Source of the DNA: Luteibacter sp.
GTDB lineage: Bacteria; Pseudomonadota; Gammaproteobacteria; Xanthomonadales; Rhodanobacteraceae
NCBI RefSeq assembly: GCF_009912395.1
Contig: NZ_WNDO01000003.1
Location: 186,001-250,000 of the forward strand
Direction: 5' to 3'
DNA: 64,000 nt
The notes beneath the pieces are model-generated. The model searched no databases and was not told the origin of the DNA. It was given only the letters and a program-made list of their open reading frames with translations. A program made the position numbers and the translations under genes. Of this stretch, positions 15,260 through 44,050 are shown one piece after another; the stretch's first letter is position 1; each line of letters opens with the position of its first letter.

Positions 15260-16363
15260 GTGGCGGCCTCCCGTTCCGGTAATCCAATCGTGCCCAGTCT
15301 AACAAGCCGTCCACTCCCGTCGGGAGATTCCAGTCTCTGCATCCTGCGCACGTCCGCCATCGGCGACGTCACGCACGTCGTGCCGCTCGTGCGGACCCTG
15401 CAGGCGACGTCCCCGTCCACCCGCCTGACCTGGCTGGTGGGCAAGCTCGAACGCAAGCTGGTGGGCGACCTGCCCGGCGTGGAGTTCGTGACGTTCGACA
15501 AGGGCAAGGGCCGTGAAGCCCTCCGCGACGTACGCCAGGCCCTGGCGGGCCGGCGCTTCGACGCGCTGCTGCATATGCAGGTGGCCTTGCGCTCCAACCT
15601 GCTCAGCCTCTCGGTCAAGGCCGATCGCCGGATCGGCTATGACAAGGCCCGTTCCAAAGACCTCCACGGCCTCTTCGTCAACGAACGCATCGCCGCTCGC
15701 AGTGGCGAACACGTGCTCGATGCGATGGCCAGCTTCATCGAACCTCTCGGCCTGAAGCAGACCGAGGTGCGCTGGGATATCCCAGTCTCCGCGGACGACC
15801 AGGCCTGGGCGGCCGCGCAGCTCCCTGGCGACGCGCCGACCCTGCTCGTGAGCCCGATGTCGAGCCACACCGTGCGGAACTGGCGCGTGGAGCGCTACGC
15901 TGCCTTGATCGACCATGCCATGGCGCGAGGGATGCGCGTGGCCATGGTGGGTGGACCGTCAGAACCCGAACGCGCCCTCGCCGACGCGATCCTCGCGCAG
16001 GTGAAGGGCGCACCGCTCGACCTCACGGGCAAGGACACCCTGAAACGCTTCATGGCGCTGCTCGCCCGCACAGCGATGATCCTCACGCCCGACTCGGGCC
16101 CGATGCACATGGCCAATGCCGCAGGCGTGAAAGTGCTTGGCCTGCACGCGGCCAGCAATCCGCATCGGTCGGGACCGTATTTGGATCGGCGCTGGTGCGT
16201 CGACAAGTACGACGCGGCGTCGCGGAAATTCCTCGGCAAGCCCGCGTCGGAAATCCCCTGGGGGACGAAGATCGAGAAACCCGGCGTGATGGATCTCGTC
16301 GAGGTGGACGAGATGGTGGATCGGTTCGAGGCCTGCGCCGAGTTCCTGCATTTACCCCTGTAG
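15260..16363 (+). CDS. Family 9 glycosyltransferase (LPS heptosyltransferase type)
   Basis: GT9 enzymes add heptose to the LPS inner core, at the cytoplasmic face. From 15260 (GTG) the product is 367 residues; a second GTG at 15290 gives 357 and may be the true start, as homology begins at LCILRTSAIGDVTHVVPLVRTL. The C-terminal donor site contains LTPDSGPMHMANAAGVKVLGLHAASNP. Which heptosyltransferase it is cannot be told. The stop codon TAG lies within a REP palindrome. Neighbouring kdkA supports an LPS role. Confidence 0.88.
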   Translation: MAASRSGNPIVPSLTSRPLPSGDSSLCILRTSAIGDVTHVVPLVRTLQATSPSTRLTWLVGKLERKLVGDLPGVEFVTFDKGKGREALRDVRQALAGRRFDALLHMQVALRSNLLSLSVKADRRIGYDKARSKDLHGLFVNERIAARSGEHVLDAMASFIEPLGLKQTEVRWDIPVSADDQAWAAAQLPGDAPTLLVSPMSSHTVRNWRVERYAALIDHAMARGMRVAMVGGPSEPERALADAILAQVKGAPLDLTGKDTLKRFMALLARTAMILTPDSGPMHMANAAGVKVLGLHAASNPHRSGPYLDRRWCVDKYDAASRKFLGKPASEIPWGTKIEKPGVMDLVEVDEMVDRFEACAEFLHLPL

Positions 16364-16403
16364 GAGCGCGCTTGCACGCGATCGCGCGCAAGCGCGCTCC
16401 TAC
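16359..16403. repeat. REP palindrome supplying both neighbouring stop codons
   Basis: A tight 45-bp near-perfect palindrome, TGTAGGAGCGCGCTTG on the left and its complement on the right, with one mismatch. The TAG of the plus-strand glycosyltransferase (16361-16363) and the TAG of the minus-strand DUF6165 gene (16400-16402) are both inside its outer arms, so the convergent pair share it as their 3' end and presumably as a hairpin at the ends of both messages. Confidence 0.95.
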
Positions 16404-16798
16404 AGGGCGCGGTAATCCTGGTAGGACTTCTCTTCGACCAGCGTCGAGCCGAGCTTGAGGTTGATCTCGCGCTTGATGGCCGCGCGCTCGTCGTTCTGGA
16501 AGTAGACCGAGCGGGCCAGTTCGACGAAGGAGGCGTCAAAGGCCTGCGCACGCTCCTTCAGGCGAATGTTGTCCTCGATATCCCAAAGGCGCTTGTTCAC
16601 GGCGAGCAGGCGTGCCGTCTCGTCGGCGATGTCGATCTTCGATGCGGCATCGTTCGTCCAGGTGGCTTCGAGCAGTTCGAGCTCGTTGCGGACGTTGGCC
16701 AGCTTCGCCTCGTCGCGGATCTCCTGAAGCTTGATCTGCAGGATGGTCATCTTGTCGATCAGCTCGCCGTAGGACACCGGGGTCTGGATCAGGCTCAT
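16400..16798 (-). CDS. DUF6165 family protein
   Basis: A 132-residue, probably helical cytoplasmic protein. The start at 16798 (MSLIQTPVSYGELIDKMTILQIK) has GGAG 8-9 bp upstream; the open frame extends 15 codons further without support. The sequence (ELIDKMTILQIKLQEI ... NKRLWDIEDNIRLKE) matches a conserved small family that occurs near LPS/glycosyltransferase genes in several proteobacteria. No catalytic motif is visible. It is convergent with the GT9 gene. Confidence 0.8.
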   Translation of the reverse strand: MSLIQTPVSYGELIDKMTILQIKLQEIRDEAKLANVRNELELLEATWTNDAASKIDIADETARLLAVNKRLWDIEDNIRLKERAQAFDASFVELARSVYFQNDERAAIKREINLKLGSTLVEEKSYQDYRAL

Positions 16799-16839
16799 GG
16801 GTCGATCTCCACACGTTCGGACGCGGAGGGTAACAGCTT

Positions 16840-17730
16840 TCATTCCTTCGGATAGACGGCCAGCGACTCCGCCAGATGATCGAATACGGCGCGGATGCGA
16901 TGGCTGGCGCGCAAGTCTTCGTGGGTCACGACCCAGGCGTCGAGCGGTATCTCGACGATACGGGGAAACAGGCGCTCCATGCCGTAACGGCGCCCCAACG
17001 GGGCCTGACAGATGCCGATGCCATAGCCGGCACGCATCGCTGCGAGCGCCGCGAGGTCGTTGTCGGTGCGCAGGCTGAAATCCTCCCGCGCATAAGGCAG
17101 GCCCGCCGGACGCATGGCCCGGATGTGGGGCCGCTCCTCGTCGTAGCCGATCAGCGTGTGCTCGCGCAGGTCTTCCAGCCGACGCGGACGACCCGCCAGG
17201 TCGAGGTAATCCGGATGGGCGAAGAATCCCAACGGTATGCGGCAGGCATGACGGGCCACCAGCGCGTCCTGCGACGGCGGCGTATTGCGCACCGCGATGT
17301 CGGCATCGCGTCGCAGCAGGTTTTCCATGCGATCGGTGGTGGACAGCTCGATGACGATGCCCGGATGCGTACGCCGGAACGCTGCGAGGATGCGCGGCAG
17401 GACCTCGGCCCCCATCACTTCGCTGGCGGTGATGCGCACTACGCCACGCAGTTCGTCCTTCGCACCCGATGCCGCCCGCAACACCGACGCCGCGGCGGCG
17501 GCCATGGATTCGGCATGTGGCAACAGTTCACGTGCGGCATCCGTGGGCGCCAGTCCTTGCGGCCCCCGAGCGAACAGCGGCACGCCCAGCGAGACCTCCA
17601 GTTCGCGCACATGGCGCCCCAGGCTGGGCTGGGTCATGCCGAGCGCCCTCGCCGCGGCGGATAGGCTGCCCTCCCGCATGACCGCGAGAAAGGAACGAAG
17701 CAAATCCCAGGAAAGGCTCTCGCTATTCAT
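16840..17730 (-). CDS. LysR-family transcriptional regulator
   Basis: A 296-residue regulator. The N-terminal winged HTH is LSWDLLRSFLAVMREGSLSAAARALGMTQPSLGRHVRELEVSLG, followed by an effector-binding domain. The start at 17730 (MNSESLSWDLL) has no clear Shine-Dalgarno site, only an A run; an upstream start 45 bp away is open but non-conserved. It is divergent from the epimerase gene over 89 bp containing the palindrome TTATGGCAACCATAA, so it probably controls that gene and itself. Confidence 0.93.
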   Translation of the reverse strand: MNSESLSWDLLRSFLAVMREGSLSAAARALGMTQPSLGRHVRELEVSLGVPLFARGPQGLAPTDAARELLPHAESMAAAAASVLRAASGAKDELRGVVRITASEVMGAEVLPRILAAFRRTHPGIVIELSTTDRMENLLRRDADIAVRNTPPSQDALVARHACRIPLGFFAHPDYLDLAGRPRRLEDLREHTLIGYDEERPHIRAMRPAGLPYAREDFSLRTDNDLAALAAMRAGYGIGICQAPLGRRYGMERLFPRIVEIPLDAWVVTHEDLRASHRIRAVFDHLAESLAVYPKE

Positions 17731-33943: not shown

Positions 33944-35998
33944 TCAGCGGCTGGCCGCCTTCCTTACGGACACGCCCTTTCGCTTCAAGGCTTCCTGCAA
34001 GGTCGCCAGGGCTTGGTCGGCCTGGATGAAACCATGCCCGGACTTGTAGTCGACGCCGGGATCGTCCATGTCCAGCGCTGAGTCCTTCAGTGCGCCGTAA
34101 AGGTCGTCGGTCTTCGCCGTAGGAGCTGCCTGCCATAGCAACGCCGCTACCGCGGCTGCATGCGGCGCGGCGGCCGAGGTACCGTAGAAATTGTAGGACA
34201 GGTAACCCGGGATCTGGCTGCAATCGGCGACCGCGGCACGGGTACCGGCCCGGTTACGACTGTCGCTGCCGAAGAACGTCGTCGTTGTGCCATCGGGCGC
34301 GACGAATTCCGGCTTGGCCGGTGTGCGTGCCGCCGCGAGAGGCGTGCCATCGGAATTGAACAGGAATGGCGTACCGCCGTAGGACGAAAAATCCTCCAAC
34401 AGGGCGGTGCGCAAGGTCGGTTGGCAGTATGGCGTACTGAAATAGTCCGCTGCACCGACGGCTGCCGCATGGTCGGCCAAAGGATGCCCGTAGATGGTCC
34501 CCGAATCGGTACCGAAGCGGCTAAAGGTTGCGAAGCCATTCTGGATGATCAGATGCACACGCCCTGGTGCGGTCCCTTGCACCAGCCCCAGGCGCAAGGT
34601 GATGCCCAGGTTCTGGTTGCCCGTGTAGCTCACGCCGACGCGTGCCTGGGCAGGCTGGCCCACGCCCGATGGACCGGAGCAATACGGTGCGGTCGGATTC
34701 AGGGTCTTGCCGTTCTGGTCACCAATGCACAGGTTCAGCGACGACGCCGAGCCCGGGCCTGTCGCTGGCTGATCCCAGTACGCCGACACCGTAAAGGAGT
34801 TGACGCCACCGGGATTCACCCCTTGCAAGTTCACCGGAATATTCACGGTGGTCGAGTTGCCAGATACATCGAAGTTCAGCAGTCGCTCGCCGACGTTAAG
34901 CGGCTGGGTTCCGCTGCGAACCCTTGCGACGGCCGTCGGCGAGAACGCCGGCCTGCTGTTGTCATAGGCACCCCGACCACCCTTGGCACCATTGCCGGCC
35001 GCCGAAAAATAGGCCGCGCCGTCCTGCGTGACGGTTTCATTGATGGCGTCGCCGATGATGCCTTCCTGGAACAGGGGCTCATCGAAAAAACCCAGGTCAT
35101 CGACAATGATCTGCGCACCCGCGCCGTCGCGCCCGAAGCTGTCCTTCTGCCCTACCGGCAGCGCCAGCGTACGGATGCCCTGGGCGAAATCCGTCTGCGT
35201 CGACGGTGCATAGAACGCAATCTTCGCACCGGGCGCCACGTCGTGGATGATCTGCGCCATGGCCCGGCCTTCGTCGGTACCGCTATTGATGCAGTCACCT
35301 TCTTCCTTCACGATCTGCGGGGAAGCCGGAAGATCGTCGCTTTTGATGTCGTCTTCCATGCTGCGCTCGTGCGACCAGGAAACGTTGTTCTTGTTGGCCG
35401 TGTTGCGCTGACCCGAGCAGTTGAAACTGTCGGAAATGACACCTACGGTCAGGCCCTTGCCGTCCACCTTCGGCACATAGGTGTCGCGCAACAGCTTGCT
35501 GTGCTGCGACGAATCACCCTGGGATCGCACATCGCCCGCATTGGTGTGTACTTCGGGGGCACTGATGCGAAGCACGCCATCGAGCGCGGCGGCCTGGTCG
35601 ATTTTCGATACGGGAAGGCGTCCCCCGATATTGTTGCGGAATACGGCCTCAGTCTTGAAACCAAGCGCTTCCAACTGTTTCCTCAGCGCACCCGGATCCC
35701 CTTTGCTCACGACGTCCACATTCACGAAGTCCTGAGTGGCGACCGGTGTACTGGCGCTGCTTCGGGATTGCGCGGTGGAAGACGGCGATGGCGCGGAAAA
35801 CGACGACGCCGGCGACACCTCCTGCTTCAACCGAAGCAGCTTGCTATCCAGCTTGGCGTTTGTGCCGCTGGCGCGTTCCGACGTCGATACTGCCGGCCCC
35901 ACATGCGTGGGTGAAAGATCCTGCTGCGCATTTGCCGCCGTGACCACACCCAGGGCGGACCACAAGGCAAGTACGAGACGGCTATTTACATGAGACAT
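33944..35998 (-). CDS. Exported subtilase/sedolisin-like serine peptidase
   Basis: A 684-residue secreted protein with a signal peptide (LALWSALGVVTAANAQ). The preferred start is 35998, since GAGG lies 9 bp upstream and touches the first ATG at 36007. The peptidase domain has Asp190 in VGVISDSF and Ser608 in YGTSAAAPHAAA. The subtilisin His motif HGTxVAG is absent; in its place is GTDEGRAMAQIIHDVAPGA with Glu243, as in sedolisin-like (Glu/Asp/Ser) enzymes. A region of about 100 residues before the catalytic domain resembles a propeptide. Confidence 0.82.
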   Translation of the reverse strand: MSHVNSRLVLALWSALGVVTAANAQQDLSPTHVGPAVSTSERASGTNAKLDSKLLRLKQEVSPASSFSAPSPSSTAQSRSSASTPVATQDFVNVDVVSKGDPGALRKQLEALGFKTEAVFRNNIGGRLPVSKIDQAAALDGVLRISAPEVHTNAGDVRSQGDSSQHSKLLRDTYVPKVDGKGLTVGVISDSFNCSGQRNTANKNNVSWSHERSMEDDIKSDDLPASPQIVKEEGDCINSGTDEGRAMAQIIHDVAPGAKIAFYAPSTQTDFAQGIRTLALPVGQKDSFGRDGAGAQIIVDDLGFFDEPLFQEGIIGDAINETVTQDGAAYFSAAGNGAKGGRGAYDNSRPAFSPTAVARVRSGTQPLNVGERLLNFDVSGNSTTVNIPVNLQGVNPGGVNSFTVSAYWDQPATGPGSASSLNLCIGDQNGKTLNPTAPYCSGPSGVGQPAQARVGVSYTGNQNLGITLRLGLVQGTAPGRVHLIIQNGFATFSRFGTDSGTIYGHPLADHAAAVGAADYFSTPYCQPTLRTALLEDFSSYGGTPFLFNSDGTPLAAARTPAKPEFVAPDGTTTTFFGSDSRNRAGTRAAVADCSQIPGYLSYNFYGTSAAAPHAAAVAALLWQAAPTAKTDDLYGALKDSALDMDDPGVDYKSGHGFIQADQALATLQEALKRKGVSVRKAASR

Positions 35999-36195
35999 CA
36001 ATGACATCCTCAGTCGGGCTCACCGGCACCATGCCGATGCATGCCACATTGAGAACGCATCCTTCAACGCATCACCCTACTTTCCCCCATGAATCATGGC
36101 ATCAAATGAAAATAGCCATCCAAAGGTAAACGCAGTCAAAACGATTCACCCCACCTTCGATGCATGAACACCGTGATCACGCGCGGCAGGCGCAC

Positions 36196-37992: not shown

Positions 37993-40023
37993 ATGCGTCA
38001 CGTACTGCTGACCGCCGCCCTGGCGGCCACCTGGTTCTCCGCGCCGGCGCTCGCCGTCGAGGCCGGGAAGGCCACGCCACTCATCGAACGTACCGCCCTT
38101 TTCGGCAATCCGAGCCGGGTCGCCGCCAAGCTGAGCCCCGACGGCAAATGGCTGGCCTGGATCGCGCCGAACAAGGGCGTGCTCAACCTGTGGGTCGCGC
38201 CGATCGACCATCCCACCCAGGGGCAGCCCCTCACCGAGGAGACGAAGCGACCCATCCGCCAGTACCTCTGGTCGCCGGATTCCTCCGCGTTGCTGTTCAT
38301 CAACGACAAGGGTGGCGACGAAAATTTCCTGCTCTACAAGGTGGGCATAAAGGATCACAAGCAGCAGTCACTCACCCCGTTCGAGAAGACCCGCGTGGAG
38401 ATCGTGGGGACGAGCGAACACATCAAGGACCGCATCCTCGTCGGCCTCAACAACCGCGACGCTCGCTGGCACGACGTGTATAGCCTCGACCTGGCCAGCG
38501 GTAAGCTGACCAAGGTGCTGGAGAACCACGGTGACTACGCGGGCTTCCTCGCCGACGACAACCTCGCGCTGCGCATCGCCATTCGTTCGCGCCCCGATGG
38601 CGGCAACGACTTCTTCCATGTGCAGGGCGACAAGGTCGACGACAAGCCGTTCAGCAGCGTCGGCCTGGACGACTCGCAGACCACCCAGCCCAGTGGCTTC
38701 ACCTATGACGGCAAGACGCTCTACTGGCTCGATTCGCGCGACCGCGATACCGCTGCACTGACAAAACAGGACGTCGGCAGCGGCAAGACGACCATAGTCG
38801 CGCAAAACCCCAAGGCCGACATCGGTGGCGTGATGGCCAACCCGAAAACCGGCGAAGTGCAGGCCTACGCGGTCGACTACCTCAAGAACGAATGGACCGC
38901 GCTGGACCCCTCCATCGCGGGAGACCTCGACTTCCTCAAGACCCAGCTGAAGGGCCAGTACGACGTCACCTCGCGCACCGACGCCGACGACCTGTGGACG
39001 GTGGACGTCGACCCGGTGAACGCGCCCGGTACGACGTACCTCTACCAGCGCGCGAACAAGAAGCTGACGAAGCTCTTCGTCAGCCGGCCCGAACTGGAAA
39101 AGGCCACCCTCGCACCGATGTATCCGCGCGAGATCGCGTCACGTGATGGTTTGACCCTGGTCTCCTACCTCACCCTGCTCGCCGGCAGCGACAGCAAGCA
39201 TCCGGGCGTGCCGGACCATCCACTGCCGATGGTGCTGTTCGTGCACGGTGGCCCGTGGGCTCGCGACAACTACGGCTATAACCGCTATCACCAGTGGCTC
39301 GCCAATCGCGGTTACGCCGTGCTGTCCGTGAACTATCGCGGCTCCACCGGTTTCGGCAAGCGCTTCATCTCCGCCGGCGACCTGCAGTGGGGCAAGAAGA
39401 TGCACGACGACCTGCTCGACGCCGTGAAGTGGGCCGTCGACCAGAAGGTGACCTCACCCGAGCAGGTCGCCATCATGGGTGGCTCCTACGGCGGCTACGC
39501 CACGCTCGCGGGCCTTACCTTCACGCCGGATACCTTCGCCTGCGGCGTGGATATCGTGGGACCGTCGAACCTGCAAACCCTGCTGAAGACGATTCCGGCG
39601 TACTGGGAAGCCGGCAAGGTGCAGTTCTACAAGCGTATGGGCGATCCGACCACGGAAGCCGGCCGCCAGTTGCTCCAGGAGCGCTCGCCGCTGACCAAGG
39701 CCGATGCGATCAAGAAGCCCTTGCTCATCGGCCAGGGCGCCAACGATCCGCGCGTCAACCAGGCGGAGTCGGACCAGATCGTGAAGGCCATGGACGCGAA
39801 GCACATCCCGGTGACCTATGTGCTGTTCCCCAACGAAGGCCATGGCTTCGCACGCCCGGAAAACAACATCGCGTTCAATGCCGTGGCCGAGCAGTTCCTG
39901 GGCAAATGCCTTGGCGGTCGCAGCGAGCCGATCGGCAACGCGTTGAAGGCATCCACCGCGAAGGTGCCGCATGGCGCGGCCTTCGTGCCGGGCCTGGAGC
40001 AGGCGTTAGGTAGCGGCAAGTAA
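37993..40023 (+). CDS. Secreted S9-family prolyl-oligopeptidase-like peptidase
   Basis: A 676-residue exported peptidase: signal peptide (LTAALAATWFSAPALAVEAG), a beta-propeller with TolB-like repeats to about residue 385, and an alpha/beta-hydrolase domain with Ser498 in GGSYGGYATLAG, Asp in GANDPRVNQAE and His in NEGHGFARPEN. S9 enzymes cut short peptides after Pro or release N-terminal dipeptides (DPP). It could act on a ribosomal peptide made nearby, but there is no direct link. A convergent terminator follows. Confidence 0.9.
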   Translation: MRHVLLTAALAATWFSAPALAVEAGKATPLIERTALFGNPSRVAAKLSPDGKWLAWIAPNKGVLNLWVAPIDHPTQGQPLTEETKRPIRQYLWSPDSSALLFINDKGGDENFLLYKVGIKDHKQQSLTPFEKTRVEIVGTSEHIKDRILVGLNNRDARWHDVYSLDLASGKLTKVLENHGDYAGFLADDNLALRIAIRSRPDGGNDFFHVQGDKVDDKPFSSVGLDDSQTTQPSGFTYDGKTLYWLDSRDRDTAALTKQDVGSGKTTIVAQNPKADIGGVMANPKTGEVQAYAVDYLKNEWTALDPSIAGDLDFLKTQLKGQYDVTSRTDADDLWTVDVDPVNAPGTTYLYQRANKKLTKLFVSRPELEKATLAPMYPREIASRDGLTLVSYLTLLAGSDSKHPGVPDHPLPMVLFVHGGPWARDNYGYNRYHQWLANRGYAVLSVNYRGSTGFGKRFISAGDLQWGKKMHDDLLDAVKWAVDQKVTSPEQVAIMGGSYGGYATLAGLTFTPDTFACGVDIVGPSNLQTLLKTIPAYWEAGKVQFYKRMGDPTTEAGRQLLQERSPLTKADAIKKPLLIGQGANDPRVNQAESDQIVKAMDAKHIPVTYVLFPNEGHGFARPENNIAFNAVAEQFLGKCLGGRSEPIGNALKASTAKVPHGAAFVPGLEQALGSGK

Positions 40024-40060: not shown

Positions 40061-40747
40061 TCAGAGCGCGGCGTCCAGTGCCGCCTCGCAATGGATCAAG
40101 GTGGTATCGAACACCGGCACGGCGACATTGCCCTGGTTCAACAGCATGCCTACCTCCGTGCAACCGAGGATCAGGCAGTCCGCACCGCGTTCGCGCAAGC
40201 GCTCCGCGATGGCGACGTAGCGGTTGCGACTGTCCTTATCCACGATGTTCCTGCATAGCTGCTCGTAGATGATCCGGTGAGTTTGTGCCCGGTCGTTGGC
40301 CTCGGGCACGATCGGCGCCAGGCCGGCGGCGGCCAGTCGATCCAGATAGAACGACTGTTCCATGGTGAAGGCCGTGGCCATCAGCCCCGGTCGACGAAGA
40401 CCGGCACGAACGATGCGCGACGCCGTGGCGTCTGCGATATGCAGCAACGGGATACTCACCTGGCGCATCATCGGCTCGGCCAGCTTGTGCATCGTGTTTG
40501 TCGCCAGCACCAGCACCTCCGCGCCGCCACGCTCCAACGCCAGGGCCTCCCGATTCAGCACCTCACCCGCTTCGTCCCACCGACCCGCGACCTGCAAGGC
40601 TTCGATATCGGCGAAATCCAGCGAGCGGATCAGCAGCTGCGGGGAATGCAGCCCACCTAGGCGTTCGCCCGTGATCCGGCATAGCTCACGGTAATACGTC
40701 TGCGTGGAGGCGGCGGACATGCCGCCGAGGATGCCGATGGTCTTCAA
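40061..40747 (-). CDS. Aspartate/glutamate racemase-family protein (YgeA-like)
   Basis: A 228-residue PLP-independent racemase-fold protein starting MKTIGILGGMSAASTQTYYRELCRI. Active-site regions are ATNTMHK near residue 85 and LILGCTEVGMLL near 195. The first catalytic position is Thr (TNTMH) rather than Cys, as in YgeA, a broad-specificity racemase; the second Cys (GCTEV) is retained. It probably interconverts amino-acid enantiomers, but substrate is unknown. It is 33 bp downstream of nudK. Confidence 0.87.
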   Translation of the reverse strand: MKTIGILGGMSAASTQTYYRELCRITGERLGGLHSPQLLIRSLDFADIEALQVAGRWDEAGEVLNREALALERGGAEVLVLATNTMHKLAEPMMRQVSIPLLHIADATASRIVRAGLRRPGLMATAFTMEQSFYLDRLAAAGLAPIVPEANDRAQTHRIIYEQLCRNIVDKDSRNRYVAIAERLRERGADCLILGCTEVGMLLNQGNVAVPVFDTTLIHCEAALDAAL

Positions 40748-40780
40748 GCGTGTCGCTCCGCCCAGGGGTACCCGAGCCTA

Positions 40781-41365
40781 TCAGGTCGGCTGCCGGTTCA
40801 GCGCCATGTGCTGCAAAAGCATGATCGTCTTCGCGTCCACGATCGTGCTGCCGATCGCGGCTAGCGCCGCCGACAACGGCATCTCCAGTACCTCGACGTC
40901 CTCGCCTTCGCTCGCCAACCCACCGCCATCGCCGACGCGCATGTCCGCATCGTACTCGCCGACGAAAAAATACAGTTTCTCCGTGACCGAACCGGGGCTC
41001 ATGAAGGCCTCGAACACCTTGCGTACGTCGCGCACGCGATAGCCGGTCTCCTCCTCCGCCTCCAGGCGGATGCGATCCTCCGGCGTAGCGTCGTCGAGCA
41101 AGCCGGCCGCCACCTCGACCAGCATGCCGTCATGACCGTTGACGAAGGCCGGCATGCGGAACTGGCGCGTGAGCAGCACGGTATCCGTGGCCGGGTTGTG
41201 CAGGAGGATGGCGGCGCCGTTGCCCCTGTCATAGGCCTCGCGACTCTGTCGCTGCCAGGTGCCGTCACGGCGAAGGAAATCGAAGGTGATCTTCCTCAGT
41301 ACGTACCAGTTGTCCGAGAGCACGGTGGTGTCGACGTGCCTGACGCGGTCTTTCGTGGTGTCCAT
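40781..41365 (-). CDS. nudK: GDP-mannose pyrophosphatase NudK
   Basis: A Nudix hydrolase that splits GDP-mannose and related nucleotide sugars. The 194-residue protein tracks E. coli NudK: VLSDNWYVLRKITFDF, REAYDRGNGAAILLHN, RQFRMPAFVNGHDG, and the Nudix box AGLLDDATPEDRIRLEAEEETGYRVRD with the key EAEEETG acids. A variant residue in the box (Leu for the usual Arg/Lys before EAEEE) is not disabling. It is divergent from the ribosomal peptide locus. Confidence 0.92.
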   Translation of the reverse strand: MDTTKDRVRHVDTTVLSDNWYVLRKITFDFLRRDGTWQRQSREAYDRGNGAAILLHNPATDTVLLTRQFRMPAFVNGHDGMLVEVAAGLLDDATPEDRIRLEAEEETGYRVRDVRKVFEAFMSPGSVTEKLYFFVGEYDADMRVGDGGGLASEGEDVEVLEMPLSAALAAIGSTIVDAKTIMLLQHMALNRQPT

Positions 41366-41650
41366 GTCCTCTCCGATGTAAATCCGCCAGTGAGTGCAGG
41401 CCGGCGCGCCATCCTATCGCAAGCGTGAAATCCTACGAACATGAACGAATCGGACGGAATGCTTTGACGTCGAAATAAAACCCATCGTCGCATCGGGGAT
41501 GAAGATCGAACCTGGAAAATCCATCACACTTTGATCGAACACCCGGATGCGCCGACGTGACTACCATGGACACGGGATTGTCATATCGACGATCTCGCAT
41601 ACGTTCAAGGCAACACCTGTTCCCAATCACACGAGAGGAAGATGCTACTC

Positions 41651-41731
41651 ATGAAGATGCTTTTTTCCCTGAAGAACAAGCTCACCCCGAAGAAGAGCCT
41701 GAAGGCCTACGCCTGGTACCTCTGGTACTGA
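41651..41731 (+). CDS. Candidate RiPP precursor peptide, atropopeptide type (AWYLWY core)
   Basis: A 26-residue peptide not recoverable by usual minimum-length gene calling. It starts at 41651 (MKMLFSLKN), with GAGAGGA 11-12 bp upstream; 41642 and 41657 are alternative starts. A basic leader with KKSLK precedes the C-terminal YAWYLWY and the stop. AWYLWY differs only by Leu for Ile from AWYIWY, the core of tryptorubin A, an actinobacterial atropopeptide cross-linked by one P450. The P450 gene lies 118 bp downstream on the same strand. Production and modification are inferred. Confidence 0.8.
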   Translation: MKMLFSLKNKLTPKKSLKAYAWYLWY

Positions 41732-41849
41732 ACCATCGCGACGGCACGCCCTTGAACTGAAGGGACACAACCGTCGATCCACGCCGCGCCAGGCGAGGCG
41801 ATCCATCGGCTTGCAGGGCGCGGCTTCACCGCACGGGGACACGGACATC

Positions 41850-42881
41850 ATGCATCCAGCCGCACAGGCCAGGACTACCGTATTCGCACCGAGACTCCAG
41901 GACCTGCTACGCGAACACCGCGGCAAGGACATGTTCCGCATCGACGACGACACCATCGGTGTCGCCGGCCCCGAGCTCACCCACTGCATCCTCGCCACCC
42001 GCTACGCCACGGAATTTGAACGCCCTACGTTCAAGCCACTCCACGGCCGATCCATCCAGCGCGCCGACGCGACGAAATGGATGCAATCCATCGGCCGGGA
42101 CGTCCGCGCGGCACTGAAGAAACCGCTTCCCGCATCCACCGATCTGTCGGGCGAATGGCCCGGCGTCGGACATAACTACCTGCGCGACCTGCTGCTGCCC
42201 AACGATCCGCATCGCCTGCGCGTGCTGATGAGCCGCGTGCTGGAACTGACGCCCAAGCTCACCTGGGCCGTGATCGCCGTCGGCGCCTTGCGCGGTTTCG
42301 ACCTGCGCGACGACGCGTCGGTGGTGGCGGGGCTTCCCGCTGGCGCAACGAGCTACCACGACCGGCGCTACGCGATGGGGCTGTACCGTCGCACGGTCGC
42401 CCCTGTCTGCTTCACCATCTCCACCCTTGTCGCCAATGCGCTGTGGCTCGGCTCGCCCTTTGACGACAACACCCCGAACGACCACATCCTCTACGAAGCC
42501 ATGCGCTTGCTCCCGCCCTCGTGGAACATGCTGCGCAACGCGTCGCCCGAGTATGCCGAGATCGATCCGCGTATCGGCCCCAAGGACGACATCCTGATCC
42601 TGCCATTGCTCAGCCAGCGCGACCCCGCCCTATGGGAAGCGCCCGACGAGTTTCGTCCGGAACGCTGGGCCGGCATCGACCCCGACGACCATCCAGGCTA
42701 CCTGCCCTTCGGTCATCGCTCGGAACGTTGCTGGGGACGGCACATGGTCATGCCGCTGGCGGGCATGCTGCTCGATATCCTGCGCAACGAGGGCATGGCC
42801 GTCAGTCCGGCGCAAACGACCGTGGACGTGCCCCTCGCCGGATTGCTGAGCGTGTCGGAAGTGAAAGTGACCCGCCAGTAG
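41850..42881 (+). CDS. Cytochrome P450, probable RiPP cross-linking enzyme
   Basis: A short P450 of 343 residues (most are about 400) from ATG 41850, with GGGGA 10 bp upstream; an upstream TTG at 41811 is open. The haem motif is LPFGHRSERCWGRHM with Cys294, the K-helix ExxR is YEAMR (Glu216, Arg219), and RPERW follows. The oxygen-activating I-helix motif (A/G-G-x-E/D-T) is not evident: the segment is APVCFTISTLVANALW. This suits an oxidase that couples aromatic side chains of the adjacent peptide by radical chemistry. Confidence 0.9.
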   Translation: MHPAAQARTTVFAPRLQDLLREHRGKDMFRIDDDTIGVAGPELTHCILATRYATEFERPTFKPLHGRSIQRADATKWMQSIGRDVRAALKKPLPASTDLSGEWPGVGHNYLRDLLLPNDPHRLRVLMSRVLELTPKLTWAVIAVGALRGFDLRDDASVVAGLPAGATSYHDRRYAMGLYRRTVAPVCFTISTLVANALWLGSPFDDNTPNDHILYEAMRLLPPSWNMLRNASPEYAEIDPRIGPKDDILILPLLSQRDPALWEAPDEFRPERWAGIDPDDHPGYLPFGHRSERCWGRHMVMPLAGMLLDILRNEGMAVSPAQTTVDVPLAGLLSVSEVKVTRQ

Positions 42882-42926
42882 CGACCACTCATGGTGCGGG
42901 AAGGCACGCCTGATTAAGATCGCGGC

Positions 42927-43649
42927 ATGTCCCGCTCCGAACGACTTCTCGACCTGCTGCAACGCCTGCGTCGCCGCAGGCGCCCCGTGAGTGCCCAGGT
43001 CCTGGCCGACGAGCTGGGCATCAGCCTGCGGACGCTCTATCGGGATATCGCCAGCCTCCAGGCCCAGGGGGCGCCCATCGAAGGCGAGGCCGGCATCGGC
43101 TACGTCCTCCGTCCCGGCTTCATGCTGCCCCCGCTGATGTTCGGCTCCGCCGAGCTCGATGCGCTGGTGCTGGGTATGCGCCTTGTCCTGGAACGGGGCG
43201 ATCGCGACCTGGCACAGGGCGCGGCGAACACGCTGGCGAAGATCGCAGCGGTGCTGCCACCGGATTTGCGGCGGGAACTGGAAGACTCGGCCTTGCTGAT
43301 CGGCAGCGGGCCCCGACCACCCGGCAACACGATCGACGCTCGTCTCCTCCGCGACGCGCTACGCCTCGAACAGAAGCTCGACATCGTCTACCTGGATCCG
43401 CACGGCAGGCGTACGAGGCGCACGGTCTGGCCCTTCGCCATCGCCCACTTCGAGCAATCGCACATCCTGATGTGCTGGTGCGAATGGCGGGGGGATTTCC
43501 GGAACTTCCGCACCGATCGCATCCAATCGGTGACGCTGCTGCCGAACCGCTATCCGACACGCAAACGAGCCTTGCTCAAGCAGTGGCGGCAGACGGAGGA
43601 CGTGATCGGCAAAACGATCCTGTCAGAAACTGACATCGACTGGACCTAG
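42927..43649 (+). CDS. WYL-domain transcriptional regulator (YafY type)
   Basis: A 240-residue regulator: N-terminal HTH (SRSERLLDLLQRLRRRRRPVSAQVLADELGISLRTLYRDIASLQAQGAPI), a C-terminal WYL-type ligand domain (LDIVYLDPHGRRTRRTVWPFAIAHF) and an EDVIGKTILSETD tail. YafY-like proteins respond to nucleotides or stress signals. The same pair with a VOC gene is common and is likely independent of the peptide locus. Start 42927 follows the P450 stop by 45 bp. Confidence 0.88.
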   Translation: MSRSERLLDLLQRLRRRRRPVSAQVLADELGISLRTLYRDIASLQAQGAPIEGEAGIGYVLRPGFMLPPLMFGSAELDALVLGMRLVLERGDRDLAQGAANTLAKIAAVLPPDLRRELEDSALLIGSGPRPPGNTIDARLLRDALRLEQKLDIVYLDPHGRRTRRTVWPFAIAHFEQSHILMCWCEWRGDFRNFRTDRIQSVTLLPNRYPTRKRALLKQWRQTEDVIGKTILSETDIDWT

Positions 43650-43681
43650 GGTAAGGGCTCCCTCCCCTCCGGGTTGTCCCC

Positions 43682-44050
43682 ATGAAGTTCGCCTCCATCC
43701 GTCTCGCCACCCGCCAATTCGAAGACCTCGTCCGGTTCTACCAGGCCCTGTCGACCATCGAACCCACCCGCCTCGCCGAAGGTTTCGCCGAAATCCGATT
43801 CGACGGCGCGACGCTGGCGATCAGCGACGAGTACCTGATCCGACTTCACAACAACGGACTGGCCGTCGCGGCCAGCAATCGCTCGGCCATCCTGGAATTC
43901 GAGGTGGACGACGTCGCGGCGGTGCTGTCCCGTATCGATGGTTCGGCCGTCGCGATGCCTGTCACGGTCATGCCCTGGGGGAACACATCGCTGATCTTGC
44001 GTGATCCCGACGGGAATCTGGTCAACGTCTTTTCAAAACCGTCGCGATGA
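43682..44050 (+). CDS. VOC-family (glyoxalase-like) protein
   Basis: A 122-residue single vicinal-oxygen-chelate domain: MKFASIRLATRQFEDLVRFYQALSTIEPTRLAEGFAEIRFDGATLAI at the start, AILEFEVDDVAAVLSRI, and MPWGNTSLILRDPDGNLVNVF at the end. It may act as a dioxygenase, lyase or binding protein; no substrate can be assigned. It is 32 bp after the WYL gene, a common pair. A REP element follows 4 bp after its stop. Confidence 0.85.
   Translation: MKFASIRLATRQFEDLVRFYQALSTIEPTRLAEGFAEIRFDGATLAISDEYLIRLHNNGLAVAASNRSAILEFEVDDVAAVLSRIDGSAVAMPVTVMPWGNTSLILRDPDGNLVNVFSKPSR

Follow-up and report, generated by a model that had tools for sequence, protein, structure and literature searches.

Precursor peptide gene and upstream region

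The window, i.e. the whole 64,000 bp stretch analysed (Luteibacter sp., contig NZ_WNDO01000003.1, positions 186,001 to 250,000), carries two adjacent genes on the plus strand, a 26 aa precursor peptide gene (MKMLFSLKNKLTPKKSLKAYAWYLWY, 41651..41731) and, after a gap of 118 bp, a 343 aa cytochrome P450 gene (41850..42881). The precursor was annotated on the basis of its translation, the NCBIfam model NF038372 and counterparts in three congeners. A purine-rich, ribosome-site-like stretch (AGAGGAAG, 41634..41641, plus strand, read by eye) is located 9 nt 5′ of the precursor ATG. A sequence-only reading of this DNA had claimed a 26-residue basic peptide with a ribosome site and a same-strand P450 118 bp on, and its coordinates, spacing and site were all correct. 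By-eye reading also found a second in-frame ATG at 41642, right after AGAGGAAG, which, judged by its spacing, would be the less likely precursor start.

The peptide matched NF038372 (“tryptorubin family RiPP precursor”) over positions 1–26 of 26 with 55.9 bits, the cut-off being 33. Six-frame searches with the same model returned one match in the whole genome of the strain (E-value 3.0e-13) and 0 matches in 14 control genomes. The translation has a basic N-terminal leader with a KSLK motif at residues 15–18 (41693..41704, plus strand; residues 17–20 in the numbering of PMC11450843), and the predicted hexapeptide core AWYLWY comprises residues 21–26 (41711..41728, plus strand), with Trp at core positions 2 and 5 and with core borders set by comparison with the family described in PMC11450843.

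In the three congeners that carry the P450, the precursor was present with few changes. Differences between the window and locus L002 amounted to 4.0 per 14.7 synonymous sites against 1.0 per 63.3 other sites; the respective values were 4.0 per 15.0 and 4.0 per 63.0 for L003, and 8.7 per 14.7 and 7.3 per 63.3 for L004. Although the numbers are small, this higher density per site at synonymous positions fits a translated peptide.

Alignment of the four Luteibacter loci (window, L002, L003, L004) revealed a shared upstream block, made up of ATCACACTT-like letters and then, at a distance that varies, GACTAnnATGGAAACGGG-like ones. In the window, the block lies 74–128 bases before the precursor (41523..41577, plus strand, ATCACACTT and TGACTACCATGGACACGGGA) and is a candidate regulatory region, possibly a promoter or operator. 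Inspection by eye of the upstream stretches printed for the other Pseudomonadota loci did not show it, and the idea of one promoter or box for all Pseudomonadota loci was rejected, the block being shared by the four Luteibacter loci only and with variable spacing. A scan for the sigma-70 consensus found no site.

Cytochrome P450

The P450 was assigned to the atropopeptide type on the basis of Pfam, an alignment of 28 sequences (A2) and a tree. The Pfam p450 match (40 bits) was limited to the haem region. Over its length, the protein was 57–76% identical to 27 P450s adjoining such precursors. Alignment A1 leaves out the order-level loci L011, L020 and L023 and the repeats L009, L013, L014 and L024. 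The ExxR motif (residues 216–219, with E216 and R219; 42495..42506, plus strand), PxRW (270–273) and ERCWG were invariant in all 28 rows; the last includes the predicted haem-ligand cysteine C294 (codon 42729..42731, plus strand). Residues Y179, R180, R181, P185, C187, F188 and T189, on a long helix (169–201), were likewise invariant. Most P450s keep an acid-alcohol pair, and the YRRT..P.CFT of atropopeptide P450s presumably occupies its place.

The best solved structure found by sequence gave 40.6 bits over about 110 residues. An AlphaFold2 model (mean pLDDT 83.7) searched with Foldseek had a best E-value of 3.0e-06, and all 50 matches listed were P450s by title; among these 50, the superpositions were loose (TM by query 0.37–0.53, rmsd about 8–13 Å), and comparing folds contributed little to the assignment.

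Co-occurrence and distribution

A search with the P450 in 61 genomes from the genus, family and order produced eight matches. Four were full-length (100, 83, 76 and 72% identity), all in Luteibacter (the own genome, G015, G007 and G005), and four, all outside the genus, were partial (29–35% over 85–116 residues, in four family and order genomes). The precursor model identified the same four of 23 Luteibacter genomes and no other, the genome of G007 being 80% complete. The cassette was absent from 19 of the 23 and is therefore dispensable. In the order sample, the precursor was found in 15 of 398 genomes, own included, and in the phylum sample in one of 398, the own genome.

A scan of named genomes, seeded with patterns from Pseudomonadota P450s, located 124 related P450 loci, 80 of which were examined. 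Every one of the 80 had a precursor within 700 bases upstream, 79 by motif pattern and one (L062, with KNLK instead of KSLK) as seen in printed frames. The peptide was thus kept wherever the P450 was kept (4/4 Luteibacter with full-length P450, 80/80 named loci), as the sequence-only reading had expected of relatives.

The cores of the four Luteibacter carriers were AWYLWY (own), AWYLWY (G015), AWYLWY (G007) and AWYIWY (G005). In 79 named loci, AWYIWY occurred 23 times, AWYLWY 18 times and AWYFWY 14 times, and the core of the window is therefore a common one. The 18 AWYLWY loci were divided into 15 of Actinomycetota and three of Pseudomonadota, and one of the latter (L025) is the same contig as that of congener G007. 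A literature search for AWYLWY or AWYIWY found no paper, which carries little weight, since cores are usually given in figures.

Two relatives, L023 (Xanthomonas-type) and L037 (Xanthomonas cucurbitae), had a broken P450 reading frame, by decay or assembly error. In L022/L024 (genome G268, same order), two tandem precursors with core regions SAWEGYISY and SYSWPHWY preceded one P450; the pair is reminiscent of a two-precursor clade (PMC11450843) and of the products WEGYIS and WPHWY (PMC12352619). Betaproteobacterial cassettes were observed in Collimonas humicola (L026, AWYIWY) and Burkholderia multivorans WS-FJ9 (L043, AWYLWY), both with P450s inside the Pseudomonadota group of the tree.

P450 tree

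The tree comprised 92 rows (90 different, with two pairs of identical rows), each from a precursor-bearing locus. L025 (same contig as L003), L011, L020 and L023 were outside it, and L037 was represented by its first 99 residues only. The window P450 grouped with those of G015 and G007 (SH-aLRT 99), within a 24-row group consisting solely of Pseudomonadota (SH-aLRT 96), i.e. Luteibacter, Dyella, Xanthomonas with other genomes of the order, Collimonas and Burkholderia. The P450 of the fourth Luteibacter, G005, fell inside the same group, its position relative to the other three not being resolved. As a quick tree without bootstraps or outgroup, drawn from the midpoint, it gives no indication of the direction of transfer. 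In PMC12352619, a rooted tree puts the P450s belonging to the Pseudomonadota precursors tested there furthest from the root.

Since only atropopeptide-type P450s were included, the tree places the protein within the family and is no test against catabolic P450s. A grouping with unrelated catabolic families, the outcome that the earlier reading had set against itself, was not encountered in the identities, which were 57–76% to atropopeptide-type P450s and weak or partial to others.

Genomic context

Stretches homologous to 16.3–16.8 kb and 25.8–27.6 kb of the window had some match in 22 and 23 of 23 Luteibacter genomes, respectively. In G015, they stand ahead of the cassette with order and strand unchanged (3186435 and 3194017–3196710, cassette from 3202266), and on the 5906 bp contig of G007 they lie at 709–1147 and 1242–1484, with the precursor at 1795 and the P450 at 1940–2965. 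In three of the four carriers, the cassette therefore lies behind the same conserved genes, the distance being 14 kb (window), 5.6 kb (G015) or 0.3 kb (G007). In G005, about 145 kb separate them. This fits the tree, with one cassette lineage, placed in a variable region, in three species and a second lineage in G005. Wholly different places for the congener cassettes were rejected, as G015 and G007 share the preceding conserved genes, whereas G005 does not. Within the first of these stretches, about 52 bases (16355–16410) match themselves on both strands and are scattered over the genome. A search with 16250–16850 gave 67 matches in the own genome, 47–70 in five congeners and 1–3 in others, and the element looks like a dispersed palindromic (REP-like) repeat of some Luteibacter species.

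The flanks of the cassette are shared with G017, which lacks it. In G017, the homologue of the S9 peptidase (up to 40063 of the window; L140 14384) directly adjoins that of the WYL regulator (42911 onwards; L140 14401), and 42911–44034 of the window, with the regulator and a glyoxalase-like gene, aligns to L140 14401–15526. These two genes being neighbours in the cassette-less genome, neither the peptidase nor the regulator belongs to the cassette. Accordingly, the WYL/YafY-type regulator (42927–43649), 45 bp downstream of the P450, was rejected as a cluster gene, as in G017 it stands next to the glyoxalase-like gene without a P450. The S9 peptidase (37993–40023) was rejected as the leader protease gene of the cluster, as its homologue was found in G017 and not in the 18 kb cassette stretches of G015 and G005. 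Proteases beside Xanthomonas clusters are reported in PMC11450843.

The region 40064–42910 of the window thus holds a racemase gene, a NUDIX gene and the cassette between genes whose homologues adjoin in G017, by rearrangement or insertion; the racemase and NUDIX homologues of G017 are found elsewhere in the same stretch. A subtilase-type (S8) peptidase gene (33944–36007, minus strand) and the prolyl-oligopeptidase-type (S9) gene (37993–40023, plus strand) lie close upstream, both with homologues in G017.

When ORFs of at least 90 aa in 30–54 kb of the window were compared with the 18 kb cassette stretch of G015, only the P450 was matched, and comparison of the window with the 18 kb stretch of G005 by DNA matched only the cassette. 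The ORF caller used for the G015 and G005 neighbourhoods picks the longest frames and overlooked the G005 P450, and its absences are therefore rough.

Biosynthetic interpretation

On the basis of these findings, the locus is read as a minimal atropopeptide (tryptorubin-type) biosynthetic cassette, with a probability of roughly 0.93. In 2024, atropopeptides were redefined by a class P450, a KSLK leader motif or close variant, and Trp at core position 2 (PMC11450843). The window has KSLK at residues 15–18, a Trp at position 2 of its A-W-Y-L-W-Y C-terminus, the core border being set by comparison, and a P450 that its 57–76% identity to 27 P450s of precursor loci assigns to the class. AWYLWY with a KSLK leader also has the xWxxWx pattern by which bitryptides are defined, as cited in PMC11450843. 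Together with the NF038372 match and the co-occurrence of precursor and P450, these features support the atropopeptide-type RiPP locus that had been proposed from the DNA alone. The neighbourhood comparisons with G015 and G005 also fit the minimal pathway proposed with it and the two-gene minimum described for the family, and the attribution to a Luteibacter-like organism was correct.

The alternative that survives best is a silent or decaying remnant, whose genes belong to the right family but have lost expression or activity in this strain. The patchy occurrence (4 of 23 Luteibacter), the missing consensus promoter in the sigma-70 scan and the broken P450 frames of L023 and L037 would agree with it, but both frames are intact in the window, the catalytic motifs of the P450 are kept and the precursor differences are denser per site at synonymous sites, so that we regard a remnant as unlikely. 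Much less probable still is another P450-modified peptide family, of biarylitide, cittilin or aminopyruvatide type, that merely resembles atropopeptides. The best NCBIfam match of the P450 was in fact ApyO of aminopyruvatide biosynthesis (56.3 bits, residues 211–327), yet this is far under the cut-off of 525 bits and covers the haem region only, while the precursor has KSLK, Trp at core position 2 and the tryptorubin-model match; biarylitide precursors, in turn, are five residues long (PMC13417212). A chance short frame next to an unrelated catabolic P450 has a negligible probability. Such frames are indeed frequent, with 182 ORFs of 25 aa or more overlapping 36–50 kb, but the precursor was the single match in the whole genome at an E-value of 3.0e-13 and the pair recurred in 4/4 and 80/80 loci.

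In characterised atropopeptide systems, the P450 recognises the leader and KSLK and cross-links aromatic residues, and a protease from outside the cluster trims the leader (PMC11450843, PMC12352619); the products carry P450-made biaryl, C–N or aryl-ether cross-links (PMC11450843). By analogy, the Luteibacter precursor would be translated, its leader would bind the P450, with KSLK anchoring the core at the active site, and the P450 would oxidatively join aromatic side chains of the core. Following the tryptorubin pattern, the bonds would be one side-chain C–C, one side-chain C–N and one C–N to the backbone. The leader would then be cut off by a protease encoded outside the cassette, possibly a peptidase of the cell.

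If all three bonds form, the predicted product of AWYLWY shares the formula of tryptorubin A, C49H50N8O9, as its leucine isomer, with [M+H]+ 895.377 calculated by hand, or 824.340 (by hand) without Ala. For comparison, the lau hexapeptide minus six hydrogens is given as 895.3760, C49H51N8O9+ (PMC11450843). The leucine isomer provides a testable mass for the Luteibacter locus. Tentatively, it is also possible that Luteibacter expresses the cassette and yields the first atropopeptide isolated from Pseudomonadota, be it this isomer or a relative with other bridges, and that this product serves the bacterium alongside plants and fungi in a way not revealed by members from Actinomycetota.

The locus brings the classical AWYxWY core to a Gram-negative genus whose four carriers can be compared with 19 natural non-carriers among the 23 genomes. 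To our knowledge, what atropopeptides do in nature has yet to be established. The locus is useful for both reasons, and also because Pseudomonadota had, by August 2025, yielded no reported atropopeptide, according to PMC12352619.

Comparison with known systems

The tryptorubin A (trp/try) cluster of Streptomyces likewise consists of two genes, with KSLK, a hexapeptide core and one P450. It differs in host phylum and in one core residue, as the core of tryptorubin A reportedly is AWYIWY; the one-residue difference had been pointed out in the sequence-only reading, and translation confirmed AWYLWY. The window P450 shares 62% identity with its counterpart in Streptomyces sp. SPB074 (L086), which we take to be a tryptorubin-type strain. 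The cluster of Amycolatopsis xylanica (L101), the amyxirubin producer (PMC11450843), has a like architecture and a P450 60% identical to that of the window, but its core is AWYIWW instead of AWYLWY.

Whether proteobacterial members had been described was left in doubt by the earlier reading. Clusters of Xanthomonas and related Pseudomonadota were in fact placed in the family in 2024 (PMC11450843). They are known by genome mining, and seven of their precursors have been tested with the P450 ScaB (PMC12352619). A word search of the main text of PMC11450843 did not find Luteibacter, Dyella or Burkholderia, and a literature search found no paper with both atropopeptide and Luteibacter.

The precursor showed no difference from the NF038372 family, with its whole-length match of 55.9 bits. 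The atropopeptide clusters of Xanthomonas and other Pseudomonadota (PMC11450843; XatA, XaaA and others, PMC12352619) share P450 group and leader type with the window, whereas several Xanthomonas are singled out in PMC11450843 for xWxxYx cores and the window has xWxxWx. The family, its public model and its presence in Pseudomonadota are thus already known; the Luteibacter locus is a well-supported further example, and the remaining novelty would be a product.
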